Position numbers and translations under genes: made by a program. Below, in pieces: positions 20,378 to 25,923 of a stretch of 45,002 nucleotides of DNA. Every line of letters begins with the position of its first letter. The first letter of the stretch is position 1. The notes under the pieces are model-generated. The model was not told the origin of the DNA, searched no databases, and saw only the letters and a program-made list of their open reading frames with translations. Origin of the DNA: Bacillota bacterium (GTDB lineage Bacteria; Bacillota; Bacilli; Bu12); the NCBI GenBank assembly GCA_014896485.1, contig JADBKH010000030.1:1-45002 (forward strand). The letters run 5' to 3'.

Positions 20378-21194
20378 TTGTTTCCCTCCCATCCATGCGG
20401 ATAAACCCCGCCATCCTTCCACACGTGCCGTTGCTGGCCCGATACGAGAAATATTGGTCAGAATGGCAGAAAGTACATTGTCCGAGCACCTGCACTCGGT
20501 CGATACCGAGCCGATTGAGCCGCAATCGATTGGCCATCCACAGATCGAAATACTGCGTCGCACCGCGCCAACCGAGCGCCGCTCCCAAAAAAGATGCCTG
20601 CTCTTGTACAGCCTGCGCAACTGAAGAACCGACCGCATAACAACAGGGCCCAATAGAAGGCCCAACCACTGCGAGAATCTGGTGTGGAAGTGTGCCAAAT
20701 GCCATTCGCATCGACGCGACTGCAGCATCGACACTTCCGGAGACCGTGCCCCGCCAACCGGCGTGGACAGCGGCCACGGCATTGTGCACCGGATCGTAGA
20801 GCAAGATTGGCACGCAATCGGCTACCAGGATGTTGAGCAGCACCCCCGTTTGTCCACAGACCAGGGCATCACAGCGTGCAATGGCATCTGCCGTCTGCCA
20901 AACTCCTGCACCACCCTCACGCGAGGTAACGACGACAGCGCGATGACCGTGCACCTGTTCGGCAAAGATCGCCTGTTTGGGGTCTTGTTGCAACATTCGG
21001 AAAAAAAGCGCCCGGTTTTGGATCACCCGCGCCGCATCATCCCCCACATGCAGTGCCAAATTGAGTGCAGCATATGGTCCTCGACTGAACCCCCCTTGGC
21101 GCACGGTAAAACCTGCAGTCACAGGATACTCTTCCCAGATGCGTATCATCGGAAAGCGATCTGCAGCGGCATCAGTTTGGGCGGGAAGATGCAC
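20370..21194 (-). CDS. pgeF: Multicopper-oxidase-like purine nucleoside phosphorylase PgeF/YlmD
   Basis: 274 residues, laccase-domain (YfiH/DUF152) family. Members act on purine nucleosides, and a role in removing mis-incorporated residues during peptidoglycan synthesis has been proposed for PgeF. Zinc-site motifs are ADCVPILLYD and VHAGWRGT, with a cysteine-histidine arrangement typical of the family. The start GTG 21194 has GGGGAGG six bases upstream; the open frame extends further into nrdR without family similarity. It overlaps nrdR by 23 bases. B. subtilis ylmD stands in the same relative place. Confidence 0.9.
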   Translation of the reverse strand: MHLPAQTDAAADRFPMIRIWEEYPVTAGFTVRQGGFSRGPYAALNLALHVGDDAARVIQNRALFFRMLQQDPKQAIFAEQVHGHRAVVVTSREGGAGVWQTADAIARCDALVCGQTGVLLNILVADCVPILLYDPVHNAVAAVHAGWRGTVSGSVDAAVASMRMAFGTLPHQILAVVGPSIGPCCYAVGSSVAQAVQEQASFLGAALGWRGATQYFDLWMANRLRLNRLGIDRVQVLGQCTFCHSDQYFSYRASNGTCGRMAGFIRMDGRETSG

Positions 21195-21672
21195 GATCTC
21201 CCTCCCCTGGCTGAACCGAAGGAGCCGTAGCGAGCTGTTCGATTTCTCTTCGAAAGGAATCCAAGTCGCGAAACTGTCGATAGACCGAAGCAAATCGGAC
21301 ATACGCGACGTCGTTGAGCTTCCGCAGCCGCTCCATCACCTTGTCACCGATCTGTACGCTTTCGATTTCAAGCGCCGCAGTCGAACGGATGTCCCGTTCT
21401 ACCTCGTCTACCAAGTGTTCAATCGCTTCCCGGGAGACATTGCACTTCTCACAGGCTTTCTCGACACCGCTCAACAACTTTTTGCGCGAAAAGGGTTCCC
21501 GCCGCCCATCGCGCTTGACGATCCACAGGGGTGCCTCTTCCACTTTCTCATAGGTGGTAAAGCGACGACCGCAGGAAGTGCATTCCCTCCTGCGCCGGAT
21601 AGCACTCCCGTCGTCGGCGGTTCGCGTGTCCAAAACCTTGCTCTCCGCGTACCCACAAAACGGGCAACGCAT
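21172..21672 (-). CDS. nrdR: Transcriptional repressor NrdR
   Basis: 166 residues, zinc ribbon plus ATP-cone repressor of ribonucleotide reductase genes. The zinc ligands are C3, C6, C31 and C34 (MRCPFC ... CTSC), followed by RRFTTYE and an ATP cone (about 49-139). It senses ATP/dATP and binds NrdR boxes upstream of nrd genes, none of which are in this window. ATG 21672 follows GGGGGAG. In B. subtilis nrdR (ytcG) is elsewhere; here it heads the pgeF run. Confidence 0.96.
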   Translation of the reverse strand: MRCPFCGYAESKVLDTRTADDGSAIRRRRECTSCGRRFTTYEKVEEAPLWIVKRDGRREPFSRKKLLSGVEKACEKCNVSREAIEHLVDEVERDIRSTAALEIESVQIGDKVMERLRKLNDVAYVRFASVYRQFRDLDSFRREIEQLATAPSVQPGEGDRASSRPN

Positions 21673-21706
21673 GGTACTCCCCCTACCGCCGAACTTCTCC
21701 CTTATC

Positions 21707-21735
21707 ATCATACCTTGCACACTAGCGCGCGTCTA
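21707..21735 (-). promoter_or_regulatory. Possible sigma-A promoter for nrdR-pgeF
   Basis: Minus strand TAGACG (21730-21735), 17-base spacer, TATGAT (21707-21712): four and five matches to TTGACA and TATAAT. It lies just before nrdR, overlapping the end of ylmC. It would drive nrdR, pgeF, the two-component genes, ylmG and ylmH. Confidence 0.35.
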
Positions 21736-23011: not shown

Positions 23012-23773
23012 CTAGTTCATCATGTGATAGAATTCCGAACGCAGTTGATTCAATATGCGCTTTTCTAACCTTGAAATGTAGGATTGGGAGATACCCAACA
23101 TCTCTGCAACGTCTTTTTGAGTCTTTTCCCGCCCATCATGCAGCCCAAACCGCAGTTCCATGATCGTGCGCTCGCGATCGTTGAGGTGTTGGAGTGCGAT
23201 ATGCAACATCTCTCGGTCCGCAGCGTTGTCCAGATTTTGGTAAACAAGATCCGCTTCGGTCCCCAATACGTCCGAAAGCAACAACTCGTTGCCATCCCAG
23301 TCCATATTGAGCGGCTCATCGAGAGAGACTTCGTTTTTGATACGGCTGTTGTGGCGCAGATACATGAGAATTTCATTTTCAATACAGCGTGAGGCGTAGG
23401 TCGCCAATTTGATGTGCTTTTGGGGATCAAACGTATTGACCGCTTTGATGAGTCCGATGGTGCCGATCGAGATCAGGTCTTCGAGCGGCACCCCGGTGTT
23501 GTCGAACTTGCGTGCGATGTAAACGACCAATCGCAGGTTGTGCTCGATCAGCGGTTCCCGCGCATTCTCGTCCCCTTCTTGCAACCGGGCGACCAGAGCC
23601 GCTTCCTCCTGCGCGCTCAACGGCGCTGGCAAAGCCTCATTGCCCCGCATGTACCAAATACGCTCTGCCCCGTGCAGCCAAGCCCGCAGACGCAGCCAGC
23701 TGCGCTGCAGCCACTGCTTGATCGAAGCTTTGAAGGAGAACCAGCCCTTCTTCTGTTGCGGCACTCTCGTCAT
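23012..23773 (-). CDS. sigE: Sporulation sigma factor sigma-E precursor
   Basis: Mother-cell early sigma factor made as an inactive membrane-bound precursor. 253 residues. The conserved body starts at [10 protein letters not shown] (about 44); region 2 holds [16 protein letters not shown] and [16 protein letters not shown], and region 4 holds [13 protein letters not shown]. The basic, tryptophan-rich pro-sequence is about 13 residues longer than in B. subtilis if the ATG at 23773 is used. That ATG overlaps the spoIIGA stop (ATGA) with AAGGAGG almost touching it; GTG 23764 (10 bases from the site) would shorten it by three. Processing by SpoIIGA is expected near the tyrosine at about 41. Confidence 0.96.
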
Positions 23774-24672
23774 GCCTCCTTGCCACATTGCGGATGGATG
23801 ATCACCTGATACTGGTCGTTTCCCAGCGGTTGCGGAGCAATGCCGAGCACCAATCGATCGATCATGCGCCTTCCTTGCACCGATTCCAACTGCGCACCAT
23901 CCACGCGGATGCCGGCGATCCATTGCTTTTCGGTACCAATCCCCCTATAGGGAATCAGCAACAATCGAGATGCCAGGAGAGGGTCATGGCCCAACCGTGC
24001 CAAGCGATCTTGTGCAGCTGCACTTTCCAGCAGTCCAGCAACGGTCTCCTCTCCCAGCAACGTTTTGAGTGCCAGCGGATCGCACAGTGCAACTGGAGCA
24101 TGGGTGATGGGATCGGTCAGATGATTGCCGGTGTCCAGTAGGGCGATCCAAGTGACACTGCGATCGCTGATCCAAAGGGTCAGCCGGCCTGTCTGAGCGG
24201 CAACAAAAGCCCTTTGCCGGCGCCACCGTGTTATCCAGAGCATCAACCAGCTGCCGAGCGGCCAAGCGCTGAGCAAGGTGATGGCACTTGCCTGCAACCA
24301 CCATTTCCCACCGGTTGCTCCCGGTGCCCAAGCTGCTCCCGCTGCAAAACCGTTGACAGCAACGACAGCACCACCCATGACAAACGAAACCAGCAAGAAG
24401 GCACCGAGGGCTACCGCATAGCGTCGTACCGATCCGAACGGAAAACAGGCCAAGACCATCGCTGCTGCCAACGCCACCTTGCAGGACGGCTGCCACAGCA
24501 CCGACAGGCTGGGCAGAATAGCAACCGTATCATAGCAGGCGCCGATGGAGGCAGCGATGGCAGTGCGCCAGGGGATCAGGCGACGGTGGGTCAGGCGTGC
24601 CGTTGTCCATAAGATCGACGCATCGAGCAGCCCGCTCAACAAGAAAGTGAGATCGCCATAGACTTGGAGCAT
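23770..24672 (-). CDS. spoIIGA: Sporulation sigma-E processing peptidase SpoIIGA
   Basis: Membrane aspartyl protease that cleaves pro-sigma-E in the mother cell after the SpoIIR signal. 300 residues. About five hydrophobic segments fill residues 1-150, and a cytosolic retropepsin-like domain follows with catalytic D180 in [15 protein letters not shown] 24672 has a weak GGTGAT ribosome site. It is the first gene of spoIIG, coupled to sigE by a four-base overlap, and has a long-spacer promoter upstream. Confidence 0.95.
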
Positions 24673-24704: not shown

Positions 24705-24738
24705 ATGATACAGGCATACCTATGAGGAATGTTGTCAG
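24705..24738 (-). promoter_or_regulatory. spoIIG-type promoter with 22-base spacer
   Basis: Minus strand CTGACA (24733-24738), exactly 22 bases, TATCAT (24705-24710): each hexamer has five of six matches to the sigma-A consensus. A 22-base spacer is the known oddity of the Spo0A-activated B. subtilis spoIIG promoter. The start would lie about 26 bases before spoIIGA. The -35 overlaps TCTGACAA, an imperfect inverted 0A box, as expected for the Spo0A site next to polymerase. Confidence 0.6.
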
Positions 24739-24783
24739 ATCATGCGTGGAAACCTACGCTTTTTATCGCACTTCTCTCCCTAC

Positions 24784-24793
24784 AACGACAAAA
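24784..24793 (-). promoter_or_regulatory. 0A-box-like site upstream of spoIIGA
   Basis: Minus strand TTTTGTCGTT, six of seven core positions or fewer from TTGTCGAA, centred about 90 bases before the inferred start. This is close to where the distal Spo0A site of B. subtilis spoIIG lies. It overlaps the tail of the ftsZ terminator. A further TTTGTCGA lies on the plus strand at 24833-24840. Confidence 0.35.
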
Positions 24794-24824
24794 GTGCCTG
24801 CTCATCTGTACCCTGGAGCAGGCA
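24790..24824 (-). terminator. Terminator after ftsZ
   Basis: A perfect 9 bp stem TGCCTGCTC/GAGCAGGCA with a 12-base loop is followed on the minus strand by CTTTTGT. It lies about 25 bases after the ftsZ stop and closes the dcw-ftsAZ transcript before spoIIG. Confidence 0.8.
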
Positions 24825-24849
24825 TCTACCGGTTTGTCGATCGTGCCGT

Positions 24850-25923
24850 CTACGTGCGCGAACGGTTGCGCCGCAAAAAAGCCGGGATTTCCAGATCCTC
24901 CTGAGATTGCGGACGCTGCACCTCCCAATTGACCGGCGTCGCCTGTTTCTCACGCGCCGTACGGCTTGGCGTCCCTTCAAAACCTGTGGCAATCACCGTA
25001 ACCGAAACGGTGTCTCGCATCTCTTCGTTGATCGCAGCGCCGAAGATGATGTTTGCCTCCGGATCGGCGGCTTGCGTCACCAAATCGGCAGCTTCGTTCA
25101 CTTCAAAGAGGCTGAGGTCTTCCCCACCACTGATATTGAGTAGAATGCCTCGCGCCCCGTCGATGGACGTCTCGAGCAAAGGTGAGCAGATCGCCTTTTT
25201 GGCCGCTTCCACAGCACGATTCTCTCCAGAGGCCTGTCCGATTCCCATCAATGCCGAACCCCGTTCAGACATAATTGCTTTGACATCCGCAAAATCGACA
25301 TTGATCAAACCCGGCACGGCGATCAGATCAGAGATACCCTGAACACCCTGCCGAAGCACATTGTCTGCCTCTTGAAAGGCTGCAAGCATGGGCGTGTTCT
25401 TATCAATGATCTCGAGCAGGCGATCGTTGGGAATGACGATGAGCGTATCGACTTTCTCCTTGAGAGCTGCAATTCCCTCTTCCGCCTGTTTCATACGCTT
25501 GCGACCCTCAAAGCTGAAGGGACGGGTGACAACACCGACCGTGAGTGCGCCAAGTTCTTTGGCCACCTCTGCAATGACAGGGGCTGCCCCCGTCCCCGTT
25601 CCACCACCCATGCCGGCTGTTACAAAAACCATATCCGCTCCGCGCAGTGCATTGGCAATCTCTTCGCGGCTCTCTTCTGCTGCCTTTTTACCAATCTCGG
25701 GATTCGCCCCTGCGCCAAGCCCGCGGGTCAGTTTGACACCGATCTGTACACGGTTGGGCGTCGCGGATTGAAGCAGCGCCTGGGCATCGGTATTGACCAC
25801 CACAAACTGAACGCCCCGCAGATTGCTGGCGATCATGCGGTTAACGCCATTGGAGCCGCCCCCGCCGACACCGATTACGACGATTTGAGACAAGCGCTCC
25901 GACTCGGTGTCAAAATCGACCAT
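24850..25923 (-). CDS. ftsZ: Cell division protein FtsZ
   Basis: Tubulin-like GTPase that forms the Z ring. 357 residues. The GTP tubulin signature GGGTGTG is at 106-112, and the synergy loop [11 protein letters not shown] near 205. The disordered linker is short (about 25 residues), which makes the protein smaller than the 380-odd of B. subtilis. The C-terminal peptide [11 protein letters not shown], which binds FtsA and other partners, is intact. ATG 25923 follows GGAGGGAG; a GTG one codon up is possible. It is 41 bases after ftsA. Confidence 0.97.

Follow-up and report, generated by a model that had tools for sequence, protein, structure and literature searches.

A probable spoIIG promoter with an overlong spacer in a G+C-rich spore former of the class Bacilli, compared with the spacers and upstream boxes of its relatives

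Expression of spoIIG is the first mother-cell gene step of spore formation. In B. subtilis, Spo0A~P bound to 0A boxes positions the sigma-A polymerase at the spoIIG promoter, the spacer of which is overlong; the textbook length of 22 nt agrees with the TTGACA-22-TATACT found in a B. subtilis-type locus of our collection (L106). The Spo0A C-domain encoded in that genome is 100% identical to PDB 1lq1, which we take to be the Spo0A of B. subtilis. In C. difficile, RNA-seq mapped a sigma-A promoter, GTGACA/TATAAT, before spoIIGA (PMC3789822), and the measured binding of Spo0A to the spoIIGA promoter is weak (PMC3485338). Among open-licence papers, our literature search turned up none that compares spoIIG spacers or upstream-box stations between species.

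The locus described here resembles B. subtilis spoIIG in its 22-nt spacer, in a weak candidate 0A box over the -35 element and in the spoIIGA-sigE operon. It differs in having TATCAT instead of TATACT and CTGACA instead of TTGACA, and in that the upstream box fitting its family lies 32 nt above the -35 element, against 54 nt in the B. subtilis type. With B. subtilis spoIIE it shares the overlong spacer, which measures 21 nt both in a B. subtilis-type spoIIE locus (L138) and at spoIIE of the window genome; spoIIE is a different gene, and in many spoIIE regions the upstream box lies on the strand opposite to that of spoIIG. The C. difficile spoIIGA promoter is likewise of the sigma-A type with GACA in the -35 element but has TATAAT as its -10 element. 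The kind of promoter is a known one; the comparison adds a second spacer length and shows the upstream box at either of two stations.

The window, by which we mean the whole analysed stretch of 45,002 nt, comes from a genome of 2.17 Mb in 65 contigs and, with a G+C content of 57.4%, is a G+C-rich and divergent example. Pfam matches place ftsA and ftsZ upstream of the gap under study and spoIIGA, sigE and sigG downstream of it, which together with the gene order makes spoIIGA and sigE the genes downstream of the promoter. The sigE product shares 67-68% identity with SigE-like proteins from Thermoactinomycetaceae. The gap extends over 177 nt of the minus strand, from the ftsZ stop (24850) to the spoIIGA ATG (24672), and contains in this order the terminator hairpin, CTGACA, 22 nt, TATCAT and 32 nt leading to the ATG (Table 1). 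In our reading, to which we assign a probability of roughly 0.87, it is the spoIIG promoter of a spore-forming member of the Bacilli and functions the way its B. subtilis counterpart does. A minus-strand frame slightly downstream of sigG (21172-21720) appears by eye to encode a product similar to the NrdR repressor (MRCPFCGYAESKVLDTR).

Table 1. Genes and sequence elements in and around the ftsZ-spoIIGA gap of the window
Feature	Position	Strand	Remarks
ftsZ, upstream neighbour of the gap	24850..25923	-	PF00091 and PF12327
ftsZ terminator hairpin	24786..24843	-	inner 9-bp stem TGCCTGCTC/GAGCAGGCA; outer stem CGACAAA/TTTGTCG
0A-like sequence ATCGACAAAC (GTTTGTCGAT on the other strand)	24833..24842	-	8/10; 5' arm of outer stem
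0A-like box TTTTGTCGTT of the first-pass annotation	24784..24793	-	8/10 to TTTTGTCGAA; 3' arm of outer terminator stem
Upstream 0A-like element TGCGATAAAAAGCG	24757..24770	-	32 nt above -35; family strand
Weak 0A box over -35, TCTGACA (TGTCAGA on the other strand)	24733..24739	-	5/7 to core
-35 element CTGACA	24733..24738	-	GACA nearly invariant among relatives
Spacer, 22 nt	24711..24732	-	counted on the sequence
-10 element TATCAT	24705..24710	-	5/6 to TATAAT; ends 32 nt before ATG
spoIIGA, pro-sigma-E protease	23770..24672	-	PF03419, E 2.9e-60; ATG at 24672
sigE	23012..23773	-	Sigma70 regions 2 and 4 (Pfam)

The first-pass annotation had pointed out CTGACA and TATCAT exactly 22 nt apart and had likened the spacing to the hallmark of B. 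subtilis spoIIG; the count is correct, and the likeness is borne out by L106. Its further figure of 26 bases to the expected start of spoIIGA does not hold as a distance to the ATG, and fits only if counted from a presumed +1. The -10 element is divergent, TATACT being the commonest -10 sequence in the spoIIG regions of relatives. A generic sigma-70 score favours 22 nt among spacers of 14-26 nt in the gap (10.1, with the runner-up at 8.2).

The spacing was surveyed in 110 spoIIGA upstream regions, comprising 47 from relatives of the same class, 34 from named loci of Thermoactinomycetaceae and Clostridia reached via the SigE protein, and 30 from further class members that include the B. subtilis group, minus one. 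The comparison genomes are no nearer than the class, and 51 of 61, the window's own genome included, gave a SpoIIGA match. Forty-nine spoIIGA loci were fetched, of which L049 and L050 were dropped because they were not re-found by sequence; G053 and a second, weak match in G019 were left out. Among 37 named loci, L070, L086 and L089 were dropped for having no SpoIIGA reading frame, and L063 was dropped because its upstream region was too short. Start codons were picked by rule, from ribosome-binding-site likeness near the aligned start, and start distances are unsure in some rows.

With a flat spacer prior, the trained matrix, whose consensus is AGTTTTGACAGACT and TATACTGG, assigns a 21-nt spacer to 67 of the 110 regions, a 22-nt spacer to 34 and another length to the remaining nine, so that 101 show one of the two lengths. 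The untrained sigma-70 consensus gives 21 nt in 31.5 and 22 nt in 10.7 of 55 Bacilli regions (4.1 and 3.9 in shuffles), and 21 nt in 15 and 22 nt in 6 of 25 clostridial regions (about 2 in shuffles). Counted by group (n=54), a 21-nt spacer occurs in 35, a 22-nt spacer in 19, both in 5 and neither in 5, the groups being family codes, or NCBI names where known, two naming schemes that cannot be matched to each other. The family comparison that the first-pass annotation had proposed bears out an overlong spacer but not a fixed length of 22 nt, the family having two spacings, 21 or 22 nt.

The promoter is good in 88 relatives, and 58 of these have upstream a box that matches at least 8/10 of TTCGACAAAA; it begins 32-35 nt above the -35 element in 36 of them, 44 nt in 2, 53-55 nt in 17 and 57 nt in 3. 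Shuffled upstream regions contain such a box in 6.5% of cases and mostly outside the family stations (251/287). The two main stations, 32-35 and 53-55 nt, are two helical turns apart. The near station is found in 17 of 28 box-bearing groups, and members of the B. subtilis group, with some of their kin, have the far one; three related clostridial-type genomes carry GTCGATAAAA at 32 nt, the distance seen in the window. A rough tree (FastTree, midpoint root), which leaves 34 of its 109 inner branches open and places the window at the end of a long one, gives 3 changes of station and 12 of spacer.

The bare hexamer-plus-22-nt pattern is weak evidence, since about one match is expected per 45 kb: TGACA-N22-TATNAT with at most one mismatch has an expectation of 1.01 in 45 kb and was found once, in the spoIIG gap, with 0 mismatches. 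An exact TTGACA-22-TATCAT stands at a second place in the genome (L051, G000:C27:19960-19993), and for both reasons the argument from the bare pattern was rejected as too weak. The pattern's expected frequency also speaks for the improbable alternative that the 22-nt pair is an accident and that transcription of spoIIGA starts at some other promoter of the gap or reads through from ftsZ. So does the preference of matrices trained on the 110 regions with a flat spacer prior, which, with spacing unrestricted and another background, favour a 14-nt pair in the gap (9.4 against 7.2 bits for the 22-nt pair). The 7.2 bits of the window pair are low for the family, whose median is 24.1. Two-part matrices trained on relatives, with the spacer fixed at 21/22 and the background matched to the window with pseudocounts added, rank the window pair narrowly first in 90 kb at 12.36 bits (runner-up 11.81), and 2 Mb of order-2 Markov random sequence contain seven sites scoring at least as high, equivalent to 0.0006 expected per 177-nt gap. 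Inclusion of the upstream box at 32-35 nt in a three-part model, a range taken from the family histogram (in which 32 occurs) after the window had been seen, again places the window site first in 90 kb, at 21.5 bits against 7.7, with no equal in 2 Mb of random sequence and with 7 of 88 family members scoring below the window. A profile of 73 positions was built from 35 of 45 prepared relatives, the window excluded and ten rows, eight of clostridial type plus L016 and L105, dropped by eye. Its top match on both window strands is 24764-24722, which reaches 8.0 bits and E 0.13 where the next match has E 0.71. A search of the whole genome with the profile, in which 150 of 329 candidates were scored, gave no match at E<=10; this empty result speaks for a chance pair but is not decisive, because the E of the site scaled from the window search would be about 6. 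An accident is made improbable by the agreement, at one place, of position and spacing with the family-trained score and the upstream element; moreover, a strong hairpin separates ftsZ from the promoter, and spoIIE has a candidate promoter of the same kind. It is highly improbable that the site is an ordinary sigma-A promoter with a poor -35 element and no requirement for Spo0A. TATCAT is a fair -10 element, and the 0A boxes at the two family positions are both weak, which would suit such a promoter, but no better -35 element is available at 16-18 nt (at 17 nt from TATCAT stands AACATT, 6.6 against 10.1), and the family spacing and upstream element have been retained. On its sequence, the window site is a real but divergent and weakly scoring member of the spoIIG-type promoters.

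The first-pass annotation had noted 0A-like sequences over the -35 element and about 90 bases upstream, in the ftsZ terminator. The former, TCTGACA, stands at the family offset, where 48 of 88 relatives have a 0A box of at least 6/7, though as a match it is weak; the latter, TTTTGTCGTT, is real and lies in the hairpin as described, but it is on the other strand relative to the boxes of relatives, and TGCGATAAAAAGCG fits them better. Scored against the family block TTCGACAAAAAAAG, TGCGATAAAAAGCG reaches 10.4 bits (family median 13.2), a score equalled by a fraction of 4.4e-5 of minus-strand positions, and its first 10 bases match the extended 0A box at 8/10. In the 0A core, Spo0A contacts the bases G2, C4 and G5 (PMC3485338); all three are retained by TTTTGTCGTT, while TGCGATAAAAAGCG lacks G2 and the box over the -35 element lacks G5. 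TGCGATAAAAAGCG is the better homologue and TTTTGTCGTT the better letter match, and both may be used as Spo0A sites. It is possible, if doubtful, that at a genuine spoIIG promoter Spo0A acts from the terminator boxes, 24793-24784 and 24842-24833, and not from 24770-24757. The footprint of TTTTGTCGTT, 46-55 nt above the -35 element, resembles the far station and nearly coincides with the box at 54 nt in L106, and in many relatives spoIIE has its upstream boxes on this strand. The relatives' 53-55-nt boxes, however, lie on the opposite strand, and 24770-24757 resembles the family block not only in sequence but also in strand and distance. The terminator boxes are furthermore otherwise explained and not independent of each other, because they are complementary arms of the terminator stem: in the predicted fold of 24849-24780 (-25 kcal/mol, z -2.66, 3 of 200 shuffles equally stable), TTTTGTCGTT pairs with 24839-24833. 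For the same reason, the excess of boxes in the gap, three of at least 8/10 where 0.16 are expected (Poisson p 0.0006; 0 of 2000 shuffles), is not taken as main evidence. The 7-base core TGTCGAA shows no excess in the gap (6 at 5/7, 5.05 expected). The relatives suggest a further 0A box, placed 10 nt above the -35 element, which is not recognisable in the window. In the hairpin, whose outer stem consists of two complementary 0A-like sequences, letters of the terminator are also those of possible Spo0A sites.

The proteins that the promoter would require are encoded in the same genome. It has one Spo0A (a single Spo0A_C match), the recognition helix of which, SRVERAIRHAIEVAW, is identical to that in PDB 1lq1, and one clear sigma-A, with a C-terminus, RKLRHPSRSKRLKDFL, identical to that of the 371-residue SigA chain of 7ckq. 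K356 and H359, presumably the surface of sigma-A region 4 for Spo0A, are both kept; a 1997 study by Schyns et al. reportedly concerns the role of sigma-A residues with Spo0A.

In the same genome, the ATG of spoIIE (L129, G000, contig C2) is preceded at 33 nt by CCGACA-21-TATCCT, and TTTGTCGTA lies about 43 nt above this pair. Under the matrices trained on spoIIG this is the top 21/22 site of the 5.3-kb spoIIE locus, at 16.1 bits against 6.1 on the other strand; the generic consensus favours a different pair, TTGCCT-22-GAAAAT. The region is a candidate for a second Spo0A-sigma-A promoter of the genome. By the generic consensus, the spoIIE spacer in 30 relatives is 21 nt in 19 and 22 nt in 5. 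In one class member spoIIE (L166, G034, contig C1, 1630979-1633254) appears in two pieces with an internal TAG, owing to a sequence error or to disruption of the gene.

From the geometry of the site, its conservation in relatives, the Spo0A and sigma-A surfaces and the like promoter of spoIIE, we infer Spo0A control of spoIIG in the window organism, and with it the binding, the activation and the start site. In the proposed course of events, sigma-A polymerase would meet TATCAT and a -35-like GACA, which at a separation of 22 nt it could not use unaided. Spo0A~P would bind the weak 0A box over the -35 element and, about three helical turns farther upstream, another site at 24770-24757, perhaps with 24793-24784 in addition. 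There it would touch or hold region 4 of sigma-A, allowing the polymerase to open the DNA and use the -10 element 22 nt away, so that spoIIGA and sigE would be made only at high Spo0A~P.

The comparison with relatives also suggests a more general design, for and against which we see the case as evenly balanced. The overlong spacer of 21-22 nt with the box over the -35 element would be shared by spoIIG and spoIIE in Bacilli and Clostridia and would probably predate their split, the upstream box being held in helical register at 32-35 or 53-55 nt. The near station, kept in the window, would be the older and more widespread one, and the far station of B. subtilis would be derived. With such a design, what textbooks present as a peculiarity of one species would become a testable rule of two spacers, 21 and 22 nt, and two box stations two turns apart. 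The rule predicts that the boxes can be moved by full but not by half helical turns, that with a 17-nt spacer the promoter would no longer need Spo0A, and that B. subtilis does not represent the general layout.

Some relatives depart from this arrangement. The f24 genomes (L032 and L036) have kept spoIIGA, and the spoIIG promoter is not recognisable in the 200 nt searched. The f12 loci of the training set (L018, L027 and L122) are without a promoter of 21/22 nt. In the f12 genomes as a whole (L018, L027, L122 and L130-L137, from 4 genera), an invariant TTTCATACGATTTA follows TTGTCT repeats before spoIIGA in 11 of 11, and is itself followed by about 19 nt and then GATAAT. The spoIIG promoter of f12 seems to have been rebuilt with Spo0A-like boxes on the opposite strand.
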